Shown here piece after piece: positions 44,737-58,086 of a stretch of DNA of 64,000 nt. Origin of the DNA: Pelagerythrobacter aerophilus. Its GTDB lineage: Bacteria; Pseudomonadota; Alphaproteobacteria; Sphingomonadales; Sphingomonadaceae. Numbering within the stretch: position 1 is the first letter of the stretch; each line of letters starts with the position of its first letter. A program made the position numbers and the translations under genes. The stretch spans positions 620,001 to 684,000 of the forward strand of contig NZ_QXFK01000019.1 in NCBI RefSeq assembly GCF_003581645.1, in the 5' to 3' direction. Under the pieces are notes generated by a model. The model did not search any database. It worked only from the letters and a program-made list of their open reading frames with translations, and had not been told where the DNA came from.

Positions 44737-47700
44737 ATGCCTGCCGAAATTTACGACAAGGCTACTGGTGAGAGCCGTTCCGTTCCGCTGGAATCCATTG
44801 AATTGAACGGCCCGAGCATCGTCAAGCTGCAGCTCGAGCGCGCCGATATCGCCAGCCTCGAACGCGAGGGTGACGATCTTCTGATCCGCCTCAAGTCAGG
44901 CGAGGTCATTCGGCTGGCGAATTTCTACGGCCTGACCGACGACTACAGCGAAGTCGTGCTCGAGGAAGCCGACGGGTCGATGTGGGTCGCCAGGCCCGGC
45001 GATGGCGTGCAGTTCTACGAACTTGGCGAGGTCGGCGATCTCTTCACTCAGGTCGCTGCGGGATCCGCCGAAGCAGGCGGGGCCGGCGCGGGCATGATTC
45101 TGCCTCTGGTTGGTCTGCTGGGAGCCGCCGGAATCGCCGCGGCCGCGGGCGGCGGCGGCGGCAGTGACGATTCGGATGCAGATGCCGATGCGGATGCTGA
45201 CGCTGACGCTGACGCAGATGCGGACGCCGATGCAGACGCTGATGCGGACGCTGACGCAGATGCAGATGCAGATGCGGACGCTGATGCTGATGCCGACGCT
45301 GATGCCGACGCTGATGCTGACGCCGATGCTGATGCTGACGCCGATGCAGACGCTGACGCAGATGCGGACGCCGATGCTGATGCCGACGCAGACGCGGACG
45401 CCGATGCAGACGCCGATGCTGATGCTGACGCCGATGCAGACGCTGACGCAGATGCGGACGCCGATGCTGATGCCGACGCAGACGCGGACGCCGATGCGGA
45501 CGCCGATGCAGACGCCGATGCCGACGCAGACGCTGATGCTGATGCGGACGCCGATGCAGACGCCGATGCTGATGCTGACGCCGATGCAGACGCTGACGCA
45601 GATGCGGACGCCGATGCTGATGCCGACGCAGACGCGGACGCCGATGCGGACGCCGATGCAGACGCCGATGCTGATGCAGACGCTGATGCCGACGCAGACG
45701 CTGATGCTGATGCTGATGCGGACGCCGATGCTGACGCGGACGCGGACGCTGACGCTGACGCTGACGCGTTCGACGATACGGCCAGCGTGGAGTTCCCGCT
45801 GACCGTCGAGACCACGGCGGATAGCGAGAGCACGACCTACACTCTGGCGGTCGGAACCTTCAGCGAGACCTACGACTTTGCGGTTGCCGCCGGTGCGGAA
45901 ACCGATGCCTCATTCACGCTAACCGCGGATAGCGTGGCGACCGTGCTCTCGGACGTCGAGTTCACTCTGCAGAGGGAACTGCCCGACGGGACGTTCGAGG
46001 ACGTCGCCAGCACCTCGGGAGGTGGTGCGCTTGACCTGCTTTCGCTCACTGTCCTTGGCGACAACCAGGTCCAGGTCACGGCCGACGACCTCCCCCCGGG
46101 GAACTATCGGGTGGTCTACGAAGGTGGCGGCCTGCTGTCGCTGGGCATCACGCTCACGCTCGATGTTGAATTCCAGACCACGACGGTCGATGGCGATCCG
46201 GTAAGCGGCAACGTGCTCGCGAACGATGTGGACGCGGGCGAGGCGGTGCTTGAGATCGATACCGGCGACGGCAACTTCGTCGCCGTGACCAACGGTCTCG
46301 TCATCGAGGGCGAATACGGCTCGCTCCTCATCAATGCGGACGGAAGCTACACCTACACGCCGAACGACGAGGCAGTGGGTGTGGGCGAGTCGGAAGTGTT
46401 TACCTACCGGCTCGTGAATCCCGACGGGACCAGCGATACGGCTACGCTGACGATCGACCTGGTGGAGGGCGACACCACATCGCCCGACACCACACCGCCC
46501 GACGCACCGACAGCGGATGTCGACGATGCGACCGGCGGTGTGGTGTCGGGCACGGGTGAGGTCGGTGCGACGATCACAGTCTATGCTCCCGACGGCACGA
46601 CCGAGCTTGGCACCGGCACGGTCGAGGCCGACGGCACCTATAGCGTGACCATCCCGGCACAGACCGATGGCGAGGACCTCTTGGTCACGGCCACCGATGC
46701 GGCCGGCAACGAGTCGACGCCGACCACGGCCGAGGCACCGGATCTCACACCACCTGCGGCACCGACGGCCGATGTCGACGATGGGACCGGCACCCTGGTG
46801 ACCGGTACGGGTGAAGTCGGCGCGACGATCACGGTCTATGCTCCCGATGGCACGACCGAACTCGGAACCGGCACGGTCGAGGCCGACGGCACCTATAGCG
46901 TGACCATCCCGGCGCAGACCGATGGCGAGGACCTCCTGGTCACCGCCACCGATGCGGCCGGCAACGAGTCCACGCCGACCACGGCCGAGGCACCGGATCT
47001 CACACCACCTGCGGCACCGACGGCCGATGTCGACGATGGGACCGGCACCCTGGTGACCGGTACGGGTGAAGTCGGCGCGACGATCACGGTCTATGCTCCC
47101 GATGGCACGACCGAACTCGGAACCGGCACGGTCGAGGCCGACGGCACCTATAGCGTGACCATCCCGGCGCAGACCGATGGCGAGGACCTCCTGGTCACCG
47201 CCACCGATGCGGCCGGCAACGAGTCCACGCCAACCACTGCCGAGGCACCCGACCTTACGCTGCCGGCAGCGCCTGAAGCTGCCCTCGAAACCGATACCGG
47301 CGTCGATGGCGACGGCATCACCAGCGACGGTACCGTCGGGATCAGCGGCCTCGAGGACGGAGCGTCCTGGGAGTACTCGATCGACGGCGGCACGAGCTGG
47401 GTGGCCGGTGCGGGCACCAGCTTCGAACTGGCTGCCGGCGAATATGCCGCCGGCGACGTGCAGGTCCGTCAGACCGACGCGGCCGGCAACACCGGACCGA
47501 GCGCTCAATTGGGCGCCGTGACGGTGGCGGTTCTCCTGGCGGTGGACGATACGGCCACGGCAGACCTGGGGGCCCGGGACTCGGTCACCCAGGCCCCGGT
47601 GACGGACGACAACCTGCAGGTCCTCGGGCTGCTCGATGACGGCAACGCCACCAACAGCCTCGCGATCTCCGTCGCCGAAGGAACCTCGGGCGATGTCGCC

Positions 47701-49740
47701 ATCGAAGTCAGCCAGACGTCGCTGCTCGCAGTGGCGGACGCCTTCAACGTCGAGATCTACGACTCGGCGGGCGAGCTGATCGGGGTCCTGACCACCGGCA
47801 ACGATCCGCTGCTTGGCGACGTGGCCGGACTGGGCGTGCTCGGGGTTACCAGCGACAATACGCTGGTCGCCAATGTGACCGGGCTCGAACCGGGCGACTA
47901 CACGATCGTGGTCCGCAAGGGCGAAAGCACCGCGGGCAGCCTGCTCGACACCGACGGCAACGGCCTGTCGCTCGAGGAACTGGGCGAAGGCGGCGTGGTC
48001 CTCGGCACCGAGAACCAGGCGCTCGTTCTTGACTCGGTCGAGACCGCACTGAACGGCGAGATCCTACCAGGCATCGGACTTCCGCTGGGAACCGTCGTCA
48101 GGAACCTCCTGGAGCCGGTGCTCGACACCACCACCAGTCTCGGTGCGGGTGAGCTGGTGGAAGTCCTGGCGGACGGTCTCAACTCGCTGGGCCTGGGCGC
48201 ATCTCTCGATGCGGTCCTCGGGGCTGTCACGGAGGCGCTGCTCAGCAACACGCTCACGGTCATCCAGGACACCTCGGTCACGGCGACCGTCACCGAGCAC
48301 AGCTTCTCGGCTATCGGTACGCCGGTCACCGGGAACGTGATCGACCCCGACGCGGTCGCCAGCGGAGAGGCGGGTGAAGATACCGCTGTTCCCGGCACGA
48401 CGGTAACGCAGGTCGAGAACGGTGCCGGCGAGGTCCAGACACTCGCCGGTGGCAGCGCGACGATCGAGGGTGCCTACGGCACGCTCGTCATCAACGCCGA
48501 CGGTTCCTACAGCTACACGGCGAACGGCGACTCCGCCTCGATCGGACTGTCCGACGTGTTCACCTACACCATCTCGGACGGGACTAACTCAGTCGAGGCG
48601 ACGCTTACGGTCGAGGTCGCGGGTGAACAAGTGGCCGACGATACGGCGCAGGCCGGGATCGAGTACGAGTACGAGGTGACCGCAGGCGATCCGATACCCG
48701 ATGCGGTGGACTATGCGTGGACCGGAGTGCTGCTTGGCGCGCCGCTCGGCGCGACTGGCGATCTCGTCAGCGACAGCTTCATCGTCGCTGCCGACACCAC
48801 CCAGGACGTGACGCTCGCCGTCGATGCCGGAAGTCTCCTCGGCGTAGGCGGCGGCGTCACGGTCTTCGTCGAGTTGCTGGACACGACGAGCGGCACCTGG
48901 AGCACTTACGCGAGCTACGATGGCAGCCAGTTGCTGAGCCTGCTGGGCAGCGGCGGCACCGGTGACATCCTCGTTCCGGACGTGCCCGCGGGCGAGTACC
49001 GGGTCCGGGCCGACGTCAACTTCGGCCTGGTCTCGGTGGCCGGGGGCGTCAACATCGACGTTACCTCGACGGTCACCCATCTCGACAGCTTCCTCGTCGG
49101 CCAGACTTTCCCGGCCGAAGGCGATCTGTTTGCGAACGACCTGCTCGGGGACGTGGATCCGCCGCTGGCGATCTCGGCCGATGGCACGACCTTTACGGAC
49201 GTGACCAGCGGCACTCCAGTGACCGTCCAGGGCACCTATGGTGCGCTGGAGGTCAATGCCGACGGCACCTACACCTACACGCCCAACACGGCGGCGCACC
49301 TGACCGAACCGGCGCTCGATACCTTCGAGTACCAGGTCACGCTTCCGTCGGGCGAGGTAGAGGAGGGCACGCTCGAGGTGACCGTCCAGCCGTCCGGCGC
49401 CGGGGTGCCCGACGCCGATGCGGCGGCCTTCATGAGCATGTTCGCAGCCGACGCCATCCCGCTCGAGCTGGCGGATGCCGACGGCAGCGAGACCATCGCG
49501 GCCACCGGCGAGACCGGGCTCCCCGAGTTCGACCTGCTCGAAGGGCAGGGCACGCTCGAGGAAGTGCTCGATCGCTATCTCGGGGAAAGCGGCGACGATG
49601 CGCCGATGCCCCTGGCGACCGAGCCGACCGGAGAGATCGCACTCGTGCAGACCGCCTTGGATCCCGTCCAGGATCCGCTCGGCTACCTGGGTACGGACCC
49701 GCGGGACGACCTCGACGGCAGTAACGTTTCGGTTGTCTAA
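44737..49740 (+). CDS. BapA-like secreted adhesin with Asp-Ala repeat tract
   Basis: This is a 1667-residue, very acidic secreted protein. Residues 1-105 resemble the Bap/LapF prefix domain ([36 protein letters not shown]). A hydrophobic Gly/Ala segment ([19 protein letters not shown]) and Gly linker follow, then 99 uninterrupted Asp-Ala dipeptides (residues 147-344). After that come BapA-type beta domains, three 85-residue Ig-like repeats (residues 587-841), a further Ig-like domain, and more BapA/VCBS-like modules with [19 protein letters not shown]-type motifs. The C-terminus ends in hydrophobic NVSVV, typical of type I secretion signals. The type I exporter genes follow directly, so it is probably a biofilm or cell-surface adhesin. 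AGGGGAG supports the ATG; a TTG at 44731 is rejected. Confidence 0.88.
45175..45768 (+). repeat. Asp-Ala coding tract with higher-order duplications
   Basis: 594 bases encode 99 Asp-Ala dipeptides using mixed synonymous codons (GAT/GAC, GCN). Within it a 128-base stretch (45394-45521) recurs identically 150 bases later (45544-45671), and an earlier related copy is offset by 90 bases, showing expansion by unequal exchange or slippage in multi-codon blocks. Confidence 0.93.
46495..47259 (+). repeat. Three tandem 255-base Ig-like domain repeats
   Basis: Units begin at 46495, 46750 and 47005, each encoding 85 residues with [27 protein letters not shown] and [18 protein letters not shown]. The second and third units are almost identical in DNA, the first slightly diverged, indicating recent duplication. 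They resemble bacterial Ig-like (Big_6-type) adhesin domains. Confidence 0.92.
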
Positions 49741-49754
49741 TCGACTGTATTCTC

Positions 49755-49787
49755 AAGGGGCTCGCGCCGAAATCGGCGCGGGCCCTT
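49755..49787 (+). terminator. Intercistronic hairpin between adhesin and exporter genes
   Basis: A GC-rich stem of about 14 pairs with one bulge (AAGGGGCTCGCGCCG with CGGCGCGGGCCCTT), AAAT loop, then GTT. The weak T run suggests partial termination, which would make more adhesin than exporter mRNA. Confidence 0.65.
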
Positions 49788-49812
49788 GTTACCGCAGTAC
49801 GAGTGAGAATGT

Positions 49813-51135
49813 GTGAAATCTAATCGGGTGAAGTGGGGGGATGCTTGGTTTGTCGCAGCCGGATGGGCCTGCGGGCTCGGCCTTTCGTCGAGCCTCGCAG
49901 CCTCGCCTCCTGAGAGCCCGGCGCCCCTCATGATCGACCGTGCTGCGCGCGAGGCGGTTGCCTGGCTTCCCTCAGTGGTAGAGGCGGGTGCGCGACTGGA
50001 TTCGCGAGCCGAGGAGATCGACGTCGCCGAAGCCGGCTATCTGCCGCAGATCAACGCCGGCGTGGGCACAGGATACGACAACATCGGCCAGAGCCGCTGG
50101 CGCCCCCGCGCCAACGTCTCCGTCTCGCAGATGCTCTACGACTTCGGGAAAGTGCGCAGCTCGGTCGACTCGGCAGAGGCCGGTGTCGCGATCGGCGAGG
50201 CGCGGCTCCTGCTTGCGGTGGATTCGCTGATCCGCGACACCAGCTACTCGGTCATCGAACTCCAGCGCACCGAAGCGCTGCGGCAGATCGCGCTCGACCA
50301 GCTCGAAAGTGTCCGCGGCATCAGCGATCTCGTGCGGCACCGCTTCGAGCAAGGCGCGGCGACCAAGGCGGACATGCTGCAGGCCGACGCCCGCGTGCAG
50401 GCCGCCCAGGCGACGATCGAGGAGATCGAGGCCGAGCACCAGCGCTGGCAGACAACCCTCGCCCATCTTCTCGGACGCGGAGAAGCTCCCGCAGTGTCGT
50501 CGGAATTGCCCGACGACTTCATGCAATCCTGCGCGCAGGGGGAGCCGGACTGGGAAACGATTCCGGCGATCCGCGAGGTCCGGGCCGAGCGCGACCAGGC
50601 GCTCGCCGACCTGGAGCGCAGCCGGGCAGAGAGCCTGCCCACCGTGTCGCTCGGTGCCGGTGGCGCGACCGACATCCACGATCCGTTCGGAGGCCGCGAA
50701 GAGTACAATTTCGGGATCAACGTCTCCACCTCGCTCTACAACGGCGGAGCCAACCAGGCGCGGATCCGAGGCGCCTCCCACGCGCTCGGCGCCGCCGACG
50801 CGGCGGAAGCGCGCATCCGCAACGATGTGAGCCGCACGCTGAGCGAAGCGCAGCGGCAAGTGGCGAGCTTCGGCCGCGTACTCGACACGCTCGCCTTTCG
50901 CGAGGCGAGCATGCGCGAGACCGGCAAGCTTTACCGCCTGCAATATCTGGAGATGGGGACCAAGACGCTGGTCGACCTGCTCAACGCGGAGCAGGAGCTG
51001 CATCAGGTCCGCTTCGACAGAGTCAACACGCAGCATGATCTCCGCCGTCTGCAGGTCGATTGCCTGGTGAATTCGGGAACCGCACGCGAGGCGGTCGGAC
51101 TCGCGGGCGCCACCATCGGCGGCACGGTCCTGTGA
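49813..51135 (+). CDS. TolC-family outer-membrane protein of the type I secretion system (LapE-like)
   Basis: This 440-residue outer-membrane channel completes the adhesin exporter. It has an N-terminal hydrophobic segment (WFVAAGWACGLGLSSSLAA) and the repeated TolC helices (AREAVAWLPSVVEAGARLDS, LVDLLNAEQELHQVRFDRVN). Motifs QMLYDFGKVRSSVDSAEAGV and SLYNGGANQARIRGA are usual in type I secretion TolC proteins. It starts with GTG at 49813. Its stop overlaps the GTG of the ABC transporter gene (GTGA). It differs strongly from the general tolC at 11669. Confidence 0.9.
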   Translation: MKSNRVKWGDAWFVAAGWACGLGLSSSLAASPPESPAPLMIDRAAREAVAWLPSVVEAGARLDSRAEEIDVAEAGYLPQINAGVGTGYDNIGQSRWRPRANVSVSQMLYDFGKVRSSVDSAEAGVAIGEARLLLAVDSLIRDTSYSVIELQRTEALRQIALDQLESVRGISDLVRHRFEQGAATKADMLQADARVQAAQATIEEIEAEHQRWQTTLAHLLGRGEAPAVSSELPDDFMQSCAQGEPDWETIPAIREVRAERDQALADLERSRAESLPTVSLGAGGATDIHDPFGGREEYNFGINVSTSLYNGGANQARIRGASHALGAADAAEARIRNDVSRTLSEAQRQVASFGRVLDTLAFREASMRETGKLYRLQYLEMGTKTLVDLLNAEQELHQVRFDRVNTQHDLRRLQVDCLVNSGTAREAVGLAGATIGGTVL

Positions 51136-53273
51136 CGGTCGAGGCCGCCCCGGACGCGGATTTCCGCCCGCACGCCTGGATCGAGGCCTTCCATCTCGTC
51201 GCTCGCCAATACGGGCTGCCGGTATCGGCCGAGACGGCCCGGCTGTCCGATCGCTGGCTGCATACCAAGGGGAATGAGGAGCGTATCCGCATGCTCGCGC
51301 GGCACGCGGGCTTGCAGGTCCACTTCGCCGAACCCGCCTCGCTGTCGTTGACGAGCTGGCGCCTACCGGTCGTCGCACGGATGCGGGACGGCGATCTGGC
51401 CGTGATCACGGCGGTCAGCGCGTCGGGGGAAGTCAGCCTGGCCGTCGCGGGCGAGGCCGGATTGCAGCAGCGCATGGAACTGGCCGAGCTGATCGAGGCC
51501 AGCGAGAGCTTCGTCGTCCCGCGCCCCGCCGGCGCCATCCCGGACGCGCGGGTCGATACCTATATCCGCCCCTACGAGGAGCACTGGCTGCGGCGAATTC
51601 TGCTGAAGGACCGCCGCTCCTACGCCAGCGTCGTCGTCGCATCGCTGGTGACGAACACGCTCGCGCTGGCCGGCGTGCTGTTCTCGATGCAGGTCTACGA
51701 CCGCGTCGTGCCGGCGGGATCGTTCCCGACGCTCTACGTCCTGTTCATCGGCGTGCTGTTCGCGATCGGTTTCAGCTTCCTGCTGACCAAGCTGCGCACC
51801 AATATCATCGACGTGCTGGGCCGGCGGGCGGACCTGCGCATTTCCGATCGGGTGTTCGGCCATGCCTTGCGGGTGCGGAACAGCGACCGTCCCGCCTCCA
51901 CCGGAACGTTCATCGCCCAGCTCCGCGATCTCGAGCAGGTGCGCGAACTGCTCACCTCGACGACGGTGTCCGCCATCGCCGACATTCCGTTCTTCCTCCT
52001 GTTCCTGGCGGCGTTCTGGTTCATCGCCGGGCCGCTCGCCCTGGTCCCGCTCGGCGCGATGCTGCTGCTGCTCGTGCCCGGCTGGCTCGCCCAGCGGAAG
52101 CTGCGTGCCTACGCGACCGAGGCAATGCGCGAGTCCTCCCTGCGCAACGCCATGCTGGTGGAAGCGATCCAGCGGATCGAGGACGTGAAGACGCTCCAGG
52201 CCGAAGACCCGCTGCAGCAGCGGTGGAACCACTTCAACGCCGTGGCGGGCGAGGCGCAGCTCAAACTCCGGGGCCTCACCAACGGGCTGACCGCCTGGGC
52301 GCAGAACGTGCAGAACGCCGTTTACGCCACGATCGTGTTCGTCGGCGCGCCATTAGTGATCGCGGGCGACATGACGACCGGCGCGCTCGTCGGCGCATCG
52401 ATCCTGGGCTCGCGCATGATGGCGCCGATCTCGCAGGTGGCGCAAGTCCTGAACCGGTTGCAGCAGGCGAAAGTCGGCATTCAGGGCGTGGACCAGATCA
52501 TGGCGCTGCCGGTCGACAACCCCGAGCACGGACACCGCCTCCAGATCCCGGCGATACAGGGGAATTTCGGCCTCCGCTCGGCCATCTTCACTTACGGAGA
52601 CGCCAACGCGCCCCCCGCGCTGGCCGTGCCGCAGCTGGACATCGCCGCGGGCGAGAAGATCGCACTGCTCGGCCGCAACGGGGCCGGCAAGTCGACCCTG
52701 CTGCAGGCGCTTTCCGGGCTGCTCCCGCCGATCGCGGGCGAAGTGCTGGTCGACGACCTGGCGCTGCAGCAGATCGATCCGGCCGATGTGCGGCGCGACA
52801 TCGGCCTGCTCAGCCAGAACAGCCGCTTGTTCCACGGGACCTTGCGCGACAACCTGACGATGGGTGCGCCCAATGCGTCCGACCAACAGATCGCGGCCAT
52901 GCTGGAAATGGTCGGCGCCGACGATTTCGTGCGCCGGACCCAGTCGGGGCTCGACTACATGATCCTCGAAGGCGGTCTGGGCCTCTCGGGCGGACAGACG
53001 CAGGCCCTGCTCCTCGCGCGGCTGTTGCTGCGCGAACCCTCGGTCGTCCTGCTCGATGAGCCCACCGCCGCGATGGACGAGGCGGCCGAGCGGCACTTCA
53101 TCGAACGCTTCGCGGACTGGAGCAAGAGCCGCACCGTGATCATCGCCACGCACCGCATGCGGGTGCTCGAACTCGTCGAGCGGATCGTCGTGATCCACAA
53201 CGGCGCGGTCAAGCTGGACAAACCCAAGCACGCCGCGCTGGCGACGATGCAGGGCAAGGGCAAGGCCGCATGA
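51132..53273 (+). CDS. Type I secretion ABC transporter with C39-like domain (LapB-like)
   Basis: This 713-residue inner-membrane ATPase energises export. Residues 1-130 are a C39 peptidase-like domain without any cysteine, so it cannot cut a leader and probably only binds substrate, as in HlyB. A six-helix membrane domain follows (about 160-440, e.g. VVASLVTNTLALAGVLFSMQ), then the nucleotide-binding domain with Walker A GRNGAGKST, signature LSGGQ, Walker B VVLLDEPT and switch His in ATH. The GTG start overlaps the TolC stop, and its TGA overlaps the HlyD ATG. Confidence 0.93.
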   Translation: MTVEAAPDADFRPHAWIEAFHLVARQYGLPVSAETARLSDRWLHTKGNEERIRMLARHAGLQVHFAEPASLSLTSWRLPVVARMRDGDLAVITAVSASGEVSLAVAGEAGLQQRMELAELIEASESFVVPRPAGAIPDARVDTYIRPYEEHWLRRILLKDRRSYASVVVASLVTNTLALAGVLFSMQVYDRVVPAGSFPTLYVLFIGVLFAIGFSFLLTKLRTNIIDVLGRRADLRISDRVFGHALRVRNSDRPASTGTFIAQLRDLEQVRELLTSTTVSAIADIPFFLLFLAAFWFIAGPLALVPLGAMLLLLVPGWLAQRKLRAYATEAMRESSLRNAMLVEAIQRIEDVKTLQAEDPLQQRWNHFNAVAGEAQLKLRGLTNGLTAWAQNVQNAVYATIVFVGAPLVIAGDMTTGALVGASILGSRMMAPISQVAQVLNRLQQAKVGIQGVDQIMALPVDNPEHGHRLQIPAIQGNFGLRSAIFTYGDANAPPALAVPQLDIAAGEKIALLGRNGAGKSTLLQALSGLLPPIAGEVLVDDLALQQIDPADVRRDIGLLSQNSRLFHGTLRDNLTMGAPNASDQQIAAMLEMVGADDFVRRTQSGLDYMILEGGLGLSGGQTQALLLARLLLREPSVVLLDEPTAAMDEAAERHFIERFADWSKSRTVIIATHRMRVLELVERIVVIHNGAVKLDKPKHAALATMQGKGKAA

Positions 53274-54457
53274 CCGCGCAGGCCGCGAGCGAGGACTGGC
53301 TGTTCGGTGAGGAGACGGATCCCCGCCTGAAGCTCTCCAGCCGCCTGGTCTGGACGCTCGGCGCACTGTTTGCCGCCGCCATCCTCTGGGCATGGTTCGC
53401 CACGCTCGACGAAGTGGCGACCGGCAGCGGCCGGGTTGTGCCGACCATGCGCGAACAGGTCATCGAATCGCTCGAAGGCGGCATCGTCGCGAAGCTGCAC
53501 GTCCAGCAGGACGATCTGGTCGAGGCCGGGCAGATTCTCGCACAGCTCGACCCGACCCAGGCGAGCTCGACCTTCGAGGAAAGCGCCGCGAAGTACCGCG
53601 CGGCGCTTGCGGCGTCGGCCCGGTTGCAGGCGGAAGTCAACCAGACGGCGCTGACCTTTCCCGCCGAGCTCGAGGAGTTTCCGGACCTCAAACAAGCGGA
53701 AACCCGCCTCTACGAAACTCGCCGGCGCAGCCTGAACGAGTCGGTTCGCCTGATCGATCAGTCGATCGCACTGATCCGCCGTGAAGTCGCGATCGGGGAA
53801 TCGCTGATCGAGGTCGGCGCCGCGAGCAACGTTGAGGTGATCCGGCTGCGGCGCCAGCTTTCCGAGCTCGAGCTGAAGAAGGCGGATCTGCGCTCGCAAT
53901 ATCTCGTCGAGGCACGGCAGCAGCTCTCCGAAGCAAACGAGCAAGTGGAGGCTCTCGCTCCGGTCGTGCGCGGGCGTTCCGACACCGTGAGCCGGCTGAC
54001 GCTCCGCTCCCCGGTCAAGGGGATCGTCAAGAGCATCGAGGTTTCGACCGTGGGCGGGGTGATCCCGCCGAACGGGCGGCTGATGGAGATCATTCCGCTG
54101 GAGGACCAGCTCATGATCGAGGCGCGCATGTCGCCGCGCGACATCGCCTTCATCCATCCGGGGCAGAGGGCGACGGTGAAAGTCACCGCCTTCGACTATT
54201 CGATCTACGGCGGCCTCGAAGGCGAAGTCGCGTCAATCTCCCCCGATACCATCCGCGACGAGGTCAATCCCGAAGTCTATTACTACCGCGTCTTCGTCCG
54301 CACGACGTCGAACGCGCTGGTCAACGATGCGGGCGAACGCTTCCCGATCGTCCCGGGCATGATCACCACCGTCGACGTTCACACCGGGCAGAAGACGGTG
54401 CTGCAATACCTGATGAAGCCGATCAACCGGGCACAGGAGGCTCTTCGGGAGAGGTGA
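53270..54457 (+). CDS. HlyD-family periplasmic adaptor of the type I secretion system (LapC-like)
   Basis: This 395-residue membrane-fusion protein has one N-terminal helix (LVWTLGALFAAAILWAWFAT), a biotinyl-lipoyl-like motif (EGGIVAKLHVQQDDLVEAGQ), a long coiled coil (about 110-230) and the HlyD C-terminal RSPVKGIVKSIEVSTVGGVI with PGQRATVKVTAFDYSIYGGL. It links the ABC transporter to the TolC duct. It is coupled by ATGA to the transporter gene and by GTGA to the Mur-ligase fusion gene downstream. Confidence 0.93.
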   Translation: MTAQAASEDWLFGEETDPRLKLSSRLVWTLGALFAAAILWAWFATLDEVATGSGRVVPTMREQVIESLEGGIVAKLHVQQDDLVEAGQILAQLDPTQASSTFEESAAKYRAALAASARLQAEVNQTALTFPAELEEFPDLKQAETRLYETRRRSLNESVRLIDQSIALIRREVAIGESLIEVGAASNVEVIRLRRQLSELELKKADLRSQYLVEARQQLSEANEQVEALAPVVRGRSDTVSRLTLRSPVKGIVKSIEVSTVGGVIPPNGRLMEIIPLEDQLMIEARMSPRDIAFIHPGQRATVKVTAFDYSIYGGLEGEVASISPDTIRDEVNPEVYYYRVFVRTTSNALVNDAGERFPIVPGMITTVDVHTGQKTVLQYLMKPINRAQEALRER

Positions 54458-57400
54458 CGGATCGGCTCGAAACCTGCCTGGAGCGCCTCCGCACCCGTCT
54501 GGGGCAGGTCCCATCCGTGCAGGTCGAAGGCCAGGCGCGCGCGGTCCTGTTCTTCTCTTTCACCGACGGAACCCGGCGAGCGACGACCGTAACCGCGAGC
54601 GGGGACACCGTGGAGGAGGCCTGGCAGGCCGGCGTCGAGCGGATCGCCGCCAGCGGCAGGGCGGTTCGCTGGTTGCGCCTCGACTGGGTCGACGCGGTGG
54701 AGCGCAGGACCTGGGGCGAACTCAAGGCAGCGCTGCGCACCATCAAGCGCAACTATTTCCGCCTCGGCGTCTCGCTCGATCCCGGCTTCGAGCACGCGTT
54801 CCTCGAGACCGAGATCAACGCCAACGCCATGCTCTACGGCGGAAACCGGAACCCGGCGGCCGTCCTCAACGAGAAGAACTTCCGCATCTACGCCGAAAAG
54901 CGCCACCGGCTGGCGGATCTGACGTTCGGCGACGACGATCCGGTCTGGCTGTTCACCACCAGGGGCGCATTCGTCGGCGACGATCTCGCGGTCCACGAGC
55001 TTTCCGGCGCCGGTCTCGACTCCGGGCGGCGTACGATGGGCGCGCTGCAGCCGGAGGATGCGGCACAGCTCGTCCGGTCGGGCAGCGCCTATCTCGCCAC
55101 GCAGGTTCTCGACGACGGGCGCTTCCATTACGGCTGGCATCCGTGCTTCGACCGCCCCATCCGGGCCTACAACACGCTGCGCCATGCGAGCACCGTCTAT
55201 GCCATGCTCGAAGCATGGGAAGTCACCCGCGACGAGGATCTGGAGCAAGCGATCAGCCGCGCCCTCGCCTATTTGACGGGGGAGCTCATTCGAATCGCGC
55301 CACTCCCTTCGGAGGAGAAGGCAGCGTTCCTCGTCGACGTCGGGGACGAGATCAAGCTGGGTGGGAACGCCGTGGCGATCCTTGCGCTGCTCAAGCACCA
55401 TGCACTGACGGGAACCGCCGAAAGCCTCGCGCTCGCCGAGCAGTTGGGTGCGGGAATCCTGCACATGCAGGATCCCGATAACGGATCGTTCTCCCATGTG
55501 CTCGCCTATTCTTCGCTGAACGAGAAGGAGCGCTTCCGGATCATCTACTACGATGGCGAGGCGGCCTTCGCCCTTATGCGCCTCTACGAGGCCACCGGCG
55601 ACGAGCGCTGGTTGTCCGCGGTGGAGAAGGCGTTCGCATACTTCATCGACCAGGAGCACTGGAAGGCACACGACCACTGGCTCAGCTATGCCGTCAATGA
55701 ACTGACCCGCTATCGGCCCGAGGAGCGCTATTTCCGGTTCGGGCTCGACAACTTTCGCACCCATCTCGGCTTCGTCCTCGAACGGATCACGACTTTCCCG
55801 ACGCTGCTGGAGCTGATGACCGCGGCGGAGAGCATGGTCGCCCGGCTGCGCGCCGATCCCGAGCGGCGGCACCTGCTCGACGGGATCGACCTGACGCGCT
55901 TCTACCAGGCGCTCGACTTTCGCGCGCACTATCTGCTCAATGGCCACTTCTGGCCCGAGCTGGCGATGTTCTTCGCCCGGCCGGAGAAGATCGCCGGCAG
56001 CTTCTTCATCCGCCACCACGCCTTCCGCATCCGCATCGACGACGTTGAGCACTACTTGTCGGGCCTGGCCGCCTATCGCCGCTATCTTCTGGCTCGCGAT
56101 GGCGAAGACGCTGCCGCCCACCGTCCTCCGGTGGAGAAGAACCAGCGTCACTGGACCGCGGCGGATGTCGAGAAGGCGACAGGCGGGGAATGGCTGAGGC
56201 GTCCAGAGGCGGACTGGTCGACGAGCGGATTGTGCACCTACCTTCCGGCATTCCGCGATGGAGACATGATCGCGCTGCGCCCGCCCGATGGCCAGCGCGG
56301 TGTCTCGGAACGTCACATTCCCCGCCTGGCGAACCGTGCCGCGGCCTATATCGGCAGCGACCCCGTGCAACTCGAAGACACTGGCGCGCCGGCTCTGCTT
56401 GTGAGCGATGTCGAGGCGGCAATTCTCGACCTCGGCGAATATGCGCGCCGAAAGATGGCTGGAAAGGTCGTCGCCGTCACCGGCAGCGCCGGAAAGACGA
56501 GCACGGTCGCAATGCTGGCGCACGCGATGGAAGGCTACGGCGCAGTCGGGACGACACGCCACAATGCCAACCTGCCGCACGGGATCGCCTGGAATCTCGC
56601 CTCGATCCCGTGGGACGTGCCGCATATCGCTCTGGAGCTGGCGATCGGCCGGATGGCGCAGAATTCACGCCTGACCCGGCCGGACGTGGCAATCTTCACC
56701 AACATCCTGCCCGCGCATCTCGAATACCACCGCGATCTCGCGACGATCGCCCGGCGAAAGAGCGCGATCTTCCAAGGCATGCGCCCCGGCGGGGTGGCGG
56801 TGCTCAACCGCGAGATGGCCGAATGGGCGCGGGTCCACATGGCCGCCCGCAGCCGCGGCCTGCGCGTGATCAACTACGGCCGGGCGGCGGGATGCGAGGT
56901 CAGGCTCGCCGGCTACGATGCATCGTCCCGCGTTGCCGAGGCGTGCATCGGCGGGCGCAGCGTCGCCTTCGCGCTGGGGGCCGCCGGGGAACACATGGCG
57001 CTGAACGCGCTGGCGGTTCTCGCCGCGCTATGGGCGCTCGGCCGCGATCTCGAACCGGCGCTGTCGCGACTGGCGACCTTCGTCCCGCTGGAAGGGCGCG
57101 GCCGGGAATTCGAAGCCGATATCGAGGGGCGGCGGGTGCTCGTCCTCGACGAGGCCTACAATGCCAATCCCGGTTCGATGGAAGCGGCGCTAGCGCTGCT
57201 GGGCACGAAGACAGGGGCCGCACGCCGCATCGCCGTCCTGGGCGAAATGGCCGAGCTCGGTCCCGACGCGGGTTCATACCACACGCAGCTTGCCGCCGCC
57301 GTGGCCCGCCAGCCGATAGACCGGGTCTATGCGCTTGGCCCCCTATACGACGAGTTCTGGTCCAATCTGCCCGAAAAAATCAGGGGAGCCCGACCTTCTT

Positions 57401-57531
57401 CCTTAGAAAAGTTAAGAAGCTGTTTACTATCCGACCTGAAAACTGGGGACGCAATACTTTTCAAAGGTTCACACAGCACTGCTATACATCAACTTGTTTC
57501 TGATATAGAAACGACAGAAGAAAGGAACTGA
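54454..57531 (+). CDS. Helical-toroid / MurF-like ligase fusion protein
   Basis: This is a 1025-residue cytoplasmic protein without signal peptide. Residues 1-190 are an unrecognised domain. About 195-550 is helix-rich with repeated hairpins (SGSAYLATQVLDDGRFHYGW, YNTLRHASTVYAMLEAWEV, YYDGEAAFALMRLYEATGDE) like alpha/alpha-toroid enzymes. About 555-1025 is a complete MurF-like ligase: an N-domain starting WTAADVEKATGGEWL, P-loop VTGSAGKTST, AHLEYHRDLATIARRKSAIF (including the Lys carbamylated in the family), LDEAYNANPGSMEAALALL (the MurF motif) and the C-domain end GDAILFKGSHS. Mur ligases join an amino acid or peptide to a carboxyl with ATP. The GTG start overlaps the HlyD stop, so it belongs to the adhesin secretion operon and may modify the adhesin. 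The last 150 bases are AT-rich with rare codons such as TTA and AGA. Confidence 0.85.
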   Translation: MTDRLETCLERLRTRLGQVPSVQVEGQARAVLFFSFTDGTRRATTVTASGDTVEEAWQAGVERIAASGRAVRWLRLDWVDAVERRTWGELKAALRTIKRNYFRLGVSLDPGFEHAFLETEINANAMLYGGNRNPAAVLNEKNFRIYAEKRHRLADLTFGDDDPVWLFTTRGAFVGDDLAVHELSGAGLDSGRRTMGALQPEDAAQLVRSGSAYLATQVLDDGRFHYGWHPCFDRPIRAYNTLRHASTVYAMLEAWEVTRDEDLEQAISRALAYLTGELIRIAPLPSEEKAAFLVDVGDEIKLGGNAVAILALLKHHALTGTAESLALAEQLGAGILHMQDPDNGSFSHVLAYSSLNEKERFRIIYYDGEAAFALMRLYEATGDERWLSAVEKAFAYFIDQEHWKAHDHWLSYAVNELTRYRPEERYFRFGLDNFRTHLGFVLERITTFPTLLELMTAAESMVARLRADPERRHLLDGIDLTRFYQALDFRAHYLLNGHFWPELAMFFARPEKIAGSFFIRHHAFRIRIDDVEHYLSGLAAYRRYLLARDGEDAAAHRPPVEKNQRHWTAADVEKATGGEWLRRPEADWSTSGLCTYLPAFRDGDMIALRPPDGQRGVSERHIPRLANRAAAYIGSDPVQLEDTGAPALLVSDVEAAILDLGEYARRKMAGKVVAVTGSAGKTSTVAMLAHAMEGYGAVGTTRHNANLPHGIAWNLASIPWDVPHIALELAIGRMAQNSRLTRPDVAIFTNILPAHLEYHRDLATIARRKSAIFQGMRPGGVAVLNREMAEWARVHMAARSRGLRVINYGRAAGCEVRLAGYDASSRVAEACIGGRSVAFALGAAGEHMALNALAVLAALWALGRDLEPALSRLATFVPLEGRGREFEADIEGRRVLVLDEAYNANPGSMEAALALLGTKTGAARRIAVLGEMAELGPDAGSYHTQLAAAVARQPIDRVYALGPLYDEFWSNLPEKIRGARPSSLEKLRSCLLSDLKTGDAILFKGSHSTAIHQLVSDIETTEERN

Positions 57532-57588
57532 CTTCAAGATAAAGCTGAATTGTTAAATATTGTTTCGGAGCATTTGACAAATATCGTC

Positions 57589-58086
57589 ATGAGAAGTTCG
57601 AAGGACAGGATCATCCCGCTTCCCGCGGATCCGTCACCCTCCTCCCGGCGGACGGTCGAATCCCTGGCGCAGGCCGGCCACGGCCGGACGATTCTCGAAC
57701 GGGAGCTCGTCGATTGCGCGCGGCGGCTCATCCGCCTCCGCAAGGAAATGGACCAGCACATTCCGCCCGGTCTGGTGAAGGACTACGCCTGGGACATACT
57801 CCTGGAGTTGTTCGTCAACGGCGAGGAAGGCGGCATCGTTTACGTCAAGCAGCTGATGCTCGTTTCAAGTATAACTCCGACATCGGCGATGCGGCTGATC
57901 GACCGGCTCGAAGACGAAGCGCTGATAGAGCGGCAACCCGATCCGCTCGACCATCGGCGCGTCATCGTCGGCCTCTCCGACCGCGGGCGCAGCGCAATGG
58001 TCACCCTCCTGCGGAAAATTCTGGAGCAGCCGGCCGAGAGCGATACCGCAGCCCGGCCAAAGCCGTTCGTCCCCCGCGGCCGATAG
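57589..58086 (+). CDS. MarR-type winged-helix regulator
   Basis: This 165-residue protein has a MarR-like core: helical dimerisation region (ILERELVDCARRLIRLRKEM), winged helix (GGIVYVKQLMLVSSITPTSA, MRLIDRLEDEALIERQPDP) and wing (DHRRVIVGLSDRGRSAM). It follows the ligase fusion gene by 57 AT-rich bases and probably belongs to or controls this gene group; the inverted repeat at 44650-44671 is a possible target. The ATG at 57589 lacks a clear ribosome-binding site, and a TTG at 57550 is an alternative. Confidence 0.8.
   Translation: MRSSKDRIIPLPADPSPSSRRTVESLAQAGHGRTILERELVDCARRLIRLRKEMDQHIPPGLVKDYAWDILLELFVNGEEGGIVYVKQLMLVSSITPTSAMRLIDRLEDEALIERQPDPLDHRRVIVGLSDRGRSAMVTLLRKILEQPAESDTAARPKPFVPRGR

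Follow-up and report, generated by a model that had tools for sequence, protein, structure and literature searches.

Two described enzyme systems act, or have been proposed to act, on Asp-rich chains. The staphylococcal Ser-Asp repeats are glycosylated on Ser by the dedicated GT4 enzymes SdgA and SdgB, and a Mur-type ligase, that of cyanophycin synthetase (TIGR02068), has been proposed to load the Asp side chains of a backbone made without ribosomes. Of the adhesins with Asp-Ala tracts, BapA of Paracoccus denitrificans has been studied best. It is a type I-secreted biofilm adhesin with 891 Asp-Ala repeats and an adjacent exporter, BapBCD (PMC5588039). In the main text of that report, BapA migrates too high on gels, a modification could not be excluded by the authors, only calcium or mineral binding could be suggested for the tract, and neither the word 'ligase' nor 'Mur' occurs (PMC5588039). 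The CapA-family enzyme MslH is a proven peptide epimerase acting on lasso peptides (PMC10406935, PMC9266682). In the literature that was covered, with most subscription journals and preprints outside its scope, no paper joined a Mur ligase with an adhesin and type I secretion, or with serine-aspartate; matches for a Mur ligase with LPXTG were, judged by title, on other subjects.

The window, a stretch of 64,000 nucleotides from one contig of Pelagerythrobacter aerophilus, contains an operon (Table 1) that resembles the Paracoccus BapA locus, as an adhesin with an Asp-Ala tract lies next to its exporter (PMC5588039). It is a BapA/LapA-type type I-secreted adhesin system with a BapA_N prefix, Ig-like repeats, an LssB-type ABC transporter, HlyD and TolC in a single operon. 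As an earlier interpretation made from the letters alone (hereafter the sequence-only reading) had described, the adhesin gene with its 99 Asp-Ala pairs is followed by TolC, ABC and HlyD genes, a 1,025-residue toroid/MurF-like fusion and a MarR-like gene, with the HlyD stop overlapping the fusion start. Indeed, the TolC/ABC, ABC/HlyD and HlyD/fusion junctions are all 4-bp NTGA overlaps, the first of them given the proposed GTG start at 51132, which overlaps the TolC stop in an ABC frame open from TTG 51060. A MarR-like ORF was also found downstream in the other six genomes of the genus and in genomes G499 and G596, and was not found in this place in G013.

Table 1. Features of the adhesin operon, with positions in the window.
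Feature	Position	Strand	Basis
BapA-type large adhesin, 1667 aa	44737..49740	+	PF22783 BapA_N 7e-22; NF045619 adhesin C-term 3e-105
Asp-Ala tract, 99 DA units in 200 residues	45169..45768	+	translation, codon count
Ig-like repeats (Big_6 / Ca_tandemer), about three, 255 bp each	46504..47249	+	repeat and profile search
TolC-family outer membrane protein	49813..51135	+	PF02321 6e-43; TIGR01844 208 bits, below the 225-bit cut-off
Type I secretion ABC transporter, LssB type	51132..53273	+	TIGR03375 1e-228, 761 bits, above cut-off
HlyD-family adaptor	53270..54457	+	TIGR01843 3e-98
Toroid/MurF-like fusion, 1025 aa, GTG start overlapping HlyD stop	54454..57531	+	translation, profile matches
N-terminal alpha/beta domain (aa 1-195), conserved together with toroid	54454..55038	+	alignment, structure model
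Alpha/alpha toroid (aa 196-552), AGE / cellobiose 2-epimerase fold	55039..56109	+	structure model
MurF-like domain (aa 566-1019)	56149..57510	+	PF08245 3e-30, PF02875 7e-15
Walker A loop (aa 675-682)	56476-56499	+	motif within MurF-like domain
MarR-family regulator-like ORF, start uncertain	57550..58086	+	PF12802 5.5e-8

The adhesin runs from BapA_N through the Asp-x tract and the Big_6/Ca_tandemer repeats to a BapA/Bap/LapF-type C-terminus. Because its Asp and Ala codons are mixed (GAC 51 and GAT 49 for Asp; four codons used 33, 27, 22 and 17 times for Ala), the tract looks maintained as protein sequence rather than being a recent DNA repeat. SdgA and SdgB are comparable as dedicated enzymes whose substrate is a dipeptide repeat in a surface adhesin, but as GT4 enzymes they place a sugar on Ser, whereas the window fusion has no GT match and only one Ser, at the second residue, occurs among the 200 residues of the window tract.

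The C-terminal part of the fusion had been called a complete MurF-like ligase, a name that suits its ATPase and C-terminal domains but not fully its N-terminal part. Like MurF, the fusion combines a central ATPase and a C-terminal domain with the P-loop (VTGSAGKT), YNANP, LGxMxEL (VLGEMAEL) and KGS (LFKGS) motifs, and thus has both the ATP loop and the C-terminal ligase motifs. When 19 fusions were compared with 23 true MurFs, the ATP-site and C-terminal residues were mostly retained. In contrast, five N-domain residues (equivalents of 596, 598, 606, 615 and 617), which we take to be the UDP-MurNAc site, were each present in 23/23 MurFs and in 0/19 fusions. The fusion also differs from MurF in carrying a toroid and in its coupling to adhesin tracts. 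By motif count, Walker A was missing in 25 of 59 Mur-bearing proteins, from 24 Comamonadaceae loci (Variovorax/Pseudacidovorax/Xenophilus) and L133. Cyanophycin synthetase shares a Mur-type ligase with the fusion, and a gene of cyanophycin-like layout (ATP-grasp + Mur) adjoins one toroid gene, in L137; however, the window protein has no ATP-grasp match and scores 37.5 against a TIGR02068 cut-off of 850, so that identity with this enzyme was rejected.

Structure prediction bore out the toroid-like helical region. Residues 1-554, comprising the N-domain and an AGE-fold alpha/alpha toroid, were modeled with a pLDDT of 93.9 and a pTM of 0.92; a full-length model based on 10 sequences was of low quality (pLDDT 75.7, pTM 0.45). 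By structure comparison (VIA), the toroid matches the fold of AGE / cellobiose 2-epimerase with Z 27.5 and rmsd 2.7 over 323 aligned residues. The fusion differs from these enzymes in its extra N-domain and in its adhesin rather than sugar context, and no sequence link was found, as hhalign gave no alignment of the toroid with three AGE proteins. Residues 1-554 had no Pfam match at cut-off. In the model, the relation to AGE appears to be one of fold only. A total of 46 toroid-region positions, including 4 His and many Arg, Glu and Asp, are identical from Pelagerythrobacter through Staphylococcus, Listeria, Enterococcus and Acinetobacter, a pattern that would suit an active site better than a chaperone. 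Public records label the toroid-family protein 'hypothetical', 'Mur ligase' or 'poly(glycerol-phosphate) alpha-glucosyltransferase'.

The co-occurrence of the toroid with Asp-Ala adhesins, which the sequence-only reading had proposed to test, was strict in a sample of 397 genomes of the family, for which about 1.5 kb was read behind each BapA_N. The 10 genomes with the toroid were exactly the 10 with a DA tract in a BapA-type adhesin, and the other 15 BapA_N genomes had neither (Fisher 3e-7 by genome, 0.001 by genus). In G596, from the same family, a toroid without MurF accompanies a short tract. A pattern-based scan yielded at least 117 toroid relatives, 80 of which gave the locus counts below. 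An Asp-x tract accompanied the toroid in 62/80, within the locus in 43 and in a BapA_N adhesin encoded at a distant site of the same genome in 19; three in-locus tracts span only 24-34 residues, beginning at a contig end, and the distant tract of the L121 genome has 19 residues and lies in a shortened locus. Contig ends interrupt 17 of the 18 tract-less loci, the BapA_N search having covered genomes other than those of L160, L164, L173 and L182. No tract was seen within about 1.5 kb in 7/30 BapA_N loci from toroid genomes, some of them cut by contig ends. On plasmids, a tract gene was nearby in 16/18 loci, including all nine Gram-positive ones, where the partner of the toroid is a DA/DS-tract protein that has an LPXTG-type motif at its end. 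No tract was seen within 10 kb of the toroid on a Variovorax plasmid (L250), nor within about 12 kb on each side in A. baumannii L243, where toroid and adhesin are both present. The toroid family thus adjoins genes for adhesins that carry long runs of Asp-Ala or Asp-Ser across many unrelated bacteria (Proteobacteria, Firmicutes), and neither in the family sample nor in most judgeable relatives did the fusion lie mostly in genomes lacking such adhesins. Because Gram-positive toroids adjoin LPXTG-type tract adhesins, the coupling is, judged from gene neighborhoods, to the tract as the common factor, and the idea of a tie peculiar to type I secretion was rejected.

The partners of the toroid, fused or neighboring, vary and belong to enzyme classes whose targets are peptides or side chains: MurF-like (some with a DD-peptidase), CapA/MslH-like, Asp-beta-hydroxylase-like, Fic-like, methyltransferase and glycosyltransferase. 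A DD-peptidase-type domain (Peptidase_S11) is fused in 3/80 loci and in G499. The likeness to MslH lies in a PGA_cap domain that some toroid proteins carry in fusion; three that were scanned matched NF038314 (E 2e-18, 6e-25 and 1e-16) at 60-88 bits, far under the cut-off of 700. The window protein lacks PGA_cap, and the lasso substrates of MslH are short peptides (PMC10406935, PMC9266682). Asp-beta-hydroxylase-like (Pfam 17-20 bits, cut-off 22.6) and Fic-like partners (20.9 bits, cut-off 24) also scored below threshold, and LPG_synthase_C joins the methyltransferase among the partners. A search of 98 loci with two GT sequences matched only K. aerogenes, with a toroid-GT4 fusion, and a neighboring gene on one S. 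epidermidis plasmid. In Sulfitobacter, a further gene annotated as a glycosyltransferase is found at about 13 kb from the toroid. Among the five loci with Ser-rich tracts, a hydroxyl-modifying partner was not found in L147 and L252. The toroid has no attached enzyme in 17/80 loci and, since it also stands alone in G596, the Mur domain is not required everywhere. As far as the aligned proteins tell, the invariant component of the system is residues 1-554 (N-domain and toroid), not the ligase.

The sequence-only reading had offered either decoration of the tract or a wall link, and both are still proposals. Tract modification is the likely function, favored from the co-occurrence of the toroid with Asp-Ala adhesins in the family sample and in most judgeable far relatives; the ATP-grasp + Mur gene beside one toroid is consistent with it, whereas a MurF part that is missing or without ATP loop in many relatives speaks against a general role of the ligase. 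A wall link, with D-Ala-D-Ala stems added to the tract and transpeptidases joining the adhesin to peptidoglycan, is improbable. The retained MurF-like C-terminal residues and the few S11 fusions would fit, but most family members have no S11, the tract proteins of the nine Gram-positive loci already end in an LPXTG-type motif, and type I secretion is generally described as taking its substrates past the periplasm. That the fusion simply serves peptidoglycan synthesis as a second MurF, in the operon by chance, would agree with its best PDB and NCBIfam matches, which are to MurF (NCBIfam under cut-offs), yet we give it hardly any weight. A plain extra MurF was rejected on account of another MurF-like gene, within the Mur ligase cluster on contig C3 of the source genome, together with the lost N-domain residues, and the coupling to tracts in two phyla argues the same way.

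More serious, although still unlikely, is that the toroid is a tract-specific chaperone or export gate keeping a highly acidic, disordered tract soluble, with accessory or degenerate attached domains. It would account for the pairing with the tract, the toroid-only loci and the Comamonadaceae Mur domains without a P-loop motif; against it, most domains that recur in fusion with the toroid or next to it are of group-transfer, ligase, epimerase-like or hydroxylase-like enzymes, and the 46 identical positions look more like those of an active site. PGA_cap and Mur domains also recall CapA/CapB, and condensation-domain genes lie upstream in Sulfitobacter, as might be expected if the enzymes built a product of their own, a polymer or small molecule (capsule, poly-gamma-glutamate-like) that leaves the cell along with the adhesin. 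This seems as poor a prospect as the wall link, since the tight partner is the tract-bearing protein and the CapA family includes MslH, a proven peptide epimerase (PMC10406935, PMC9266682).

We therefore prefer modification of the tract, in which a toroid-family protein probably alters the Asp-x runs of the adhesin chemically before surface display. For the window, the balance tips slightly toward the fusion working inside the cell as an enzyme reserved for the Asp-Ala tract of the adhesin from its own operon. Residues 1-554, whose invariant residues include many Arg and His, would bind the unfolded tract and, as the AGE fold is one of epimerases and isomerases, may catalyze a first change on it. 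The MurF-like domain would next use ATP to turn Asp beta-carboxylates into acyl phosphates and join an amine to them, D-Ala-D-Ala or D-Ala being the simplest choices; the adhesin so modified would then leave by LssB/HlyD/TolC. Amide formation on Asp by the Mur domain has about an even chance of being correct; D-Ala(-D-Ala) as the group added is a tentative and rather doubtful choice. More broadly, the evidence leaves evenly poised the idea that N-domain and toroid form the core of an undescribed modification system rewriting Asp-x tracts of giant surface proteins in Gram-negative and Gram-positive bacteria, whichever way these proteins are secreted. The chemistry would be set by an exchangeable second enzyme (Mur-type amide ligase, Mur with DD-peptidase, CapA/MslH-type epimerase, Asp hydroxylase, Fic, methyltransferase/aminoacyl transferase or glycosyltransferase), perhaps matched to Ala or Ser as the partner residue. 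If true, RiPP-like chemistry would act on adhesins of up to thousands of residues, this class of protein modification would be new, and Mur ligases would gain a function beyond peptidoglycan. Tracts of Asp-Ala and Asp-Ser are a recurring feature of biofilm adhesins and surface proteins in both environmental and clinical bacteria, and their conserved toroid partner makes the question of tract modification directly testable.

The operon recovered in the window runs adhesin, TolC, LssB-type ABC transporter, HlyD, toroid/MurF fusion and MarR-like gene (contig C6 of the genome, G000). This order, the 99 Asp-Ala (DA) units of the adhesin tract and the HlyD/fusion overlap were all recovered as the sequence-only reading had described them. 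With a proposed GTG start for the ABC gene, 4-bp overlaps occur at the TolC/ABC, ABC/HlyD and HlyD/fusion junctions, a sign that the four genes may be translationally coupled. Neither the adhesin nor the exporter is unusual on its own; each is a typical representative of a known kind. The codons of the tract are freely mixed (GAC 51, GAT 49; GCT 33, GCC 27, GCA 22, GCG 17), so selection apparently maintains its protein sequence. The Ig-like repeats of the adhesin (255 bp) are near-identical (95% matches) and probably reflect a recent expansion. A second operon copy was found on contig C14 of G000, where the stretch read starts within the adhesin. It is probably an assembly duplicate, because its proteins are 100% identical over the parts compared and the genome has 4.71% contamination.

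Coordinates of the features discussed in the text
Feature	Source	Position
Adhesin secretion operon	window	44737-58086
Adhesin Ig-like repeats	window	46504-47249
Proposed GTG start of ABC gene	window	51132
Toroid/MurF fusion (N-domain and toroid, residues 1-554; Mur domain, 566-1019)	window	54454-57531
Second operon copy	G000 contig C14 (locus L062)	114000-133999
Recombinase-/transposase-like ORFs beside the G499 operon	L074	4273-5576; 17508-18428
Fusion ending within the Mur domain	L125	9983-12649
alpha/beta-hydrolase gene	L130	13127-14197
alpha/beta-hydrolase gene	L141	13883-14929
alpha/beta-hydrolase gene	L245	17078-18124
Two condensation-domain genes	L246	10854-13736

Among 397 genomes of the family, the toroid region was present in 10 (4 genera) and a match to the adhesin domain BapA_N in 25 (14 genera). 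The 10 toroid genomes were exactly those with a DA tract in the BapA_N adhesin, and none was seen in the other 15 over the approximately 1.5 kb examined behind BapA_N. The proposed co-occurrence of toroid and Asp-Ala adhesin is strict in this sample (10/10 vs. 0/15 BapA_N genomes), with Fisher's test values (3e-7 by genome, 0.001 by genus) that are descriptive only because the genomes are related. Genomes G499 and G596 retain the operon order of the window; in G596 the toroid has no MurF part at all, and the tract is short, with 20 DA. In G013, adhesin and fusion lie next to each other in divergent orientation with no exporter genes in between, and the DA run extends for about 1,000 residues up to the contig end. 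The ORFs flanking the G499 operon, judged by eye from their sequences, hint at cassette mobility. Across 385 genomes sampled from the whole class, the only strong toroid match was in the window's own genome, the other eight being weak (best, 36% over about half of the query). The tract was absent from all 23 class-wide BapA_N loci fetched besides the window's own, most BapA_N matches there being below cut-off.

When a collection of 84,980 species genomes was searched with a pair of peptide patterns taken from the toroid alignment, at least 117 relatives were confirmed. The best 80 of these 117, on which the locus counts rest, belong to Sphingomonadales, Rhizobiales, Burkholderiales, Pseudomonas/Halopseudomonas, Methylobacter, Halomonas and others. 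An ABC match of at least 450 residues and a HlyD match were found in 59 of the 80 loci, and the toroid directly follows HlyD in 31. Asp at alternate positions (Asp-x tract) was observed within 43 loci, mostly as pure DA, with Asp-Ser (DS) in L136 and L147 and clearly mixed DA/DS in L149 and L150. For a further 19, the genome has such a tract in a BapA_N adhesin outside the locus, based on a BapA_N search of 50 toroid genomes (32 with BapA_N) and, for L106, on the family sample. Of the 18 tract-less loci, four (L160, L164, L173, L182) stood outside that search. In 17 of the 18, the contig breaks off within the locus, upstream of the toroid. For the remaining one, L134, the BapA_N locus of the genome is likewise cut short, seemingly where its contig ends.

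Toroid homologues (31-61% identity) were also found in 54 plasmid-collection records, some of them chromosome-sized, including Staphylococcus (15), Enterococcus (6) and Listeria (2). A gene with an Asp-x tract lies near the toroid in 16 of the 18 loci examined; none was visible in Acinetobacter baumannii L243 and Variovorax L250. The expected pairing with an Asp-Ala adhesin and a type I exporter therefore held for the tract, but in all nine Gram-positive loci the tract protein, just upstream of the toroid, carries a C-terminal LPXTG-type motif (7 LPxTG, 2 YPATG). In the Sulfitobacter plasmid locus L246, two condensation-domain (PF00668) genes lie directly upstream of a toroid-Mur fusion, and a DA-tract BapA gene lies on its other side. 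Public annotation lists toroid proteins as hypothetical, Mur ligase family, glutamate ligase or poly(glycerol-phosphate) alpha-glucosyltransferase. The last label also occurs on proteins without a GT domain (matches H24, H28, H34 and others), where it is likely a misannotation, perhaps spread from toroid-GT4 fusions.

No Pfam model scored above cut-off for residues 1-554 of the fusion in 62 homologues, the weak matches being GH88, GH76 and GH127. The AlphaFold2 model of this region, built from the 62 sequences, had a mean pLDDT of 93.9 and a pTM of 0.92. Residues 196-552 of the model adopt a cellobiose 2-epimerase type fold (VIA Z 27.5, rmsd 2.7, 323 aligned, 15% identity), a predicted likeness of fold only, from which function does not follow. 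Of 83 positions invariant across the 62-sequence alignment, 46 are also unchanged in six distant homologues; these positions include R193, R243, H244, E299, H348, R362, R376, D407, H408, R444, R490, H521, R525, R527, D529, D530 and E532. Such deep conservation is as expected for, and would fit, an enzyme or a polyanion-binding cleft.

Profile and structure-database matches to MurF span residues 566-1019. We aligned 19 fusion Mur domains with 23 true MurFs from related genomes. The earlier description as a complete MurF-like ligase stands for the catalytic and C-terminal positions, which are mostly common to both groups (e.g., G677, E728, R882, D899, S908, M909, H943 and K1004, in 18 or 19 of 19), but not for the N-domain, where 596 D, 598 R, 606 F, 615 D and 617 H occur in 23/23 MurFs and 0/19 fusions. 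These five lie in the part of MurF that binds UDP-MurNAc, so the ligase engine is retained and the usual acceptor site appears to be lost. In Sphingomonas sp. 7/4-4 (L125), the fusion stops within the Mur domain (888 aa), a truncation or frameshift.

Of the best 80 of 117 relatives, 27 have a Mur domain with a P-loop motif. A ligase step common to the whole group is opposed by 17 toroid-only proteins and by 24 toroid-Mur proteins (among L152-L182; all Variovorax, Pseudacidovorax or Xenophilus) that lack the P-loop (Walker A) motif and are candidate pseudo-ligases; the constant part is the toroid. The other 12 carry PGA_cap + Mur (4), Mur + Peptidase_S11 (3: L115, which is G013, L118 and L141), a beta-hydroxylase-like part (3), Fic-like + Mur (1) or methyltransferase + LPG_synthase_C (1). 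Classes were assigned by Pfam for 15 proteins and by tblastn or motifs for the remainder; G499 is an additional Mur + Peptidase_S11 case outside the 80. NCBIfam scans of three of the four PGA_cap proteins each gave a match to the model epimerase_MslH (E 2e-18, 6e-25, 1e-16; far below cut-off). In PMC10406935 and PMC9266682, MslH is described as a peptide epimerase of the CapA family that acts at C-alpha. For the beta-hydroxylase-like part, the Pfam match is weak (17-20 bits vs. a cut-off of 22.6) but agrees with solved beta-hydroxylases (E 3e-4); the L148 copy has lost His residues that the other two conserve. In L136, the Fic-like part scored 20.9 of 24 bits in Pfam, below cut-off, and 1e-29 with an NCBIfam Fic-type model.

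Partners fused in some loci adjoin the toroid in others, which argues for one predicted pathway. Separate neighbours include an ATP-grasp+Mur gene after the toroid (L137), a hydroxylase homologue (L250), and PGA_cap homologues (L172, L243). The toroid is also followed by a separate Mur ligase gene in Staphylococcus aureus pWBG759 and in S. simulans, by a short Mur fragment in S. lugdunensis and by a separate MurF-like gene in Nitratireductor. An alpha/beta-hydrolase gene recurs right beside the toroid in several alphaproteobacterial loci, such as L130, L141 and L245, and is a possible further partner. In Klebsiella aerogenes, the toroid is fused to GT4, and this fusion comes after genes of a type I exporter and a 376 Asp-Ser run; in S. 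epidermidis ADQBG, an almost pure DS tract has a glycosyltransferase gene as its neighbour. The hydroxyl-modifying partners (two glycosyltransferases, one Fic-like) all accompany Ser-rich tracts, at three of five Ser-rich loci, small numbers that hint at partner chemistry matched to the tract residue.

The sequence-only reading proposed that the fusion may decorate Asp side chains of the adhesin or prepare a cell-wall link. The mechanism proposed here builds on the observed set of genes, their coupling, the residues kept and lost, and the fold; its substrate, place, chemistry and order of steps we infer. The fusion would most likely meet the adhesin in the cytosol, before export; the N-domain and toroid would grip the tract and may alter it, and the Mur domain would make amides on Asp carboxylates. 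The simplest guess for the group added would be D-Ala-D-Ala, since the fusion retains the C-domain signature of MurF and some relatives have a fused DD-peptidase-type domain. According to PMC5588039, BapA of Paracoccus denitrificans has 891 Asp-Ala repeats, is required for biofilm and shows odd gel mobility.

In full-text literature searches, neither a Mur ligase paired with an adhesin and type I secretion nor one paired with serine-aspartate gave any paper; for Mur ligase with LPXTG, the papers returned were all on other subjects, judged by title. MurF, cyanophycin synthetase and SD-repeat glycosylation were each considered as the identity of the system and rejected on their defining tests. 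For this reason, we rate the toroid/tract system, as a predicted system, as new in kind.
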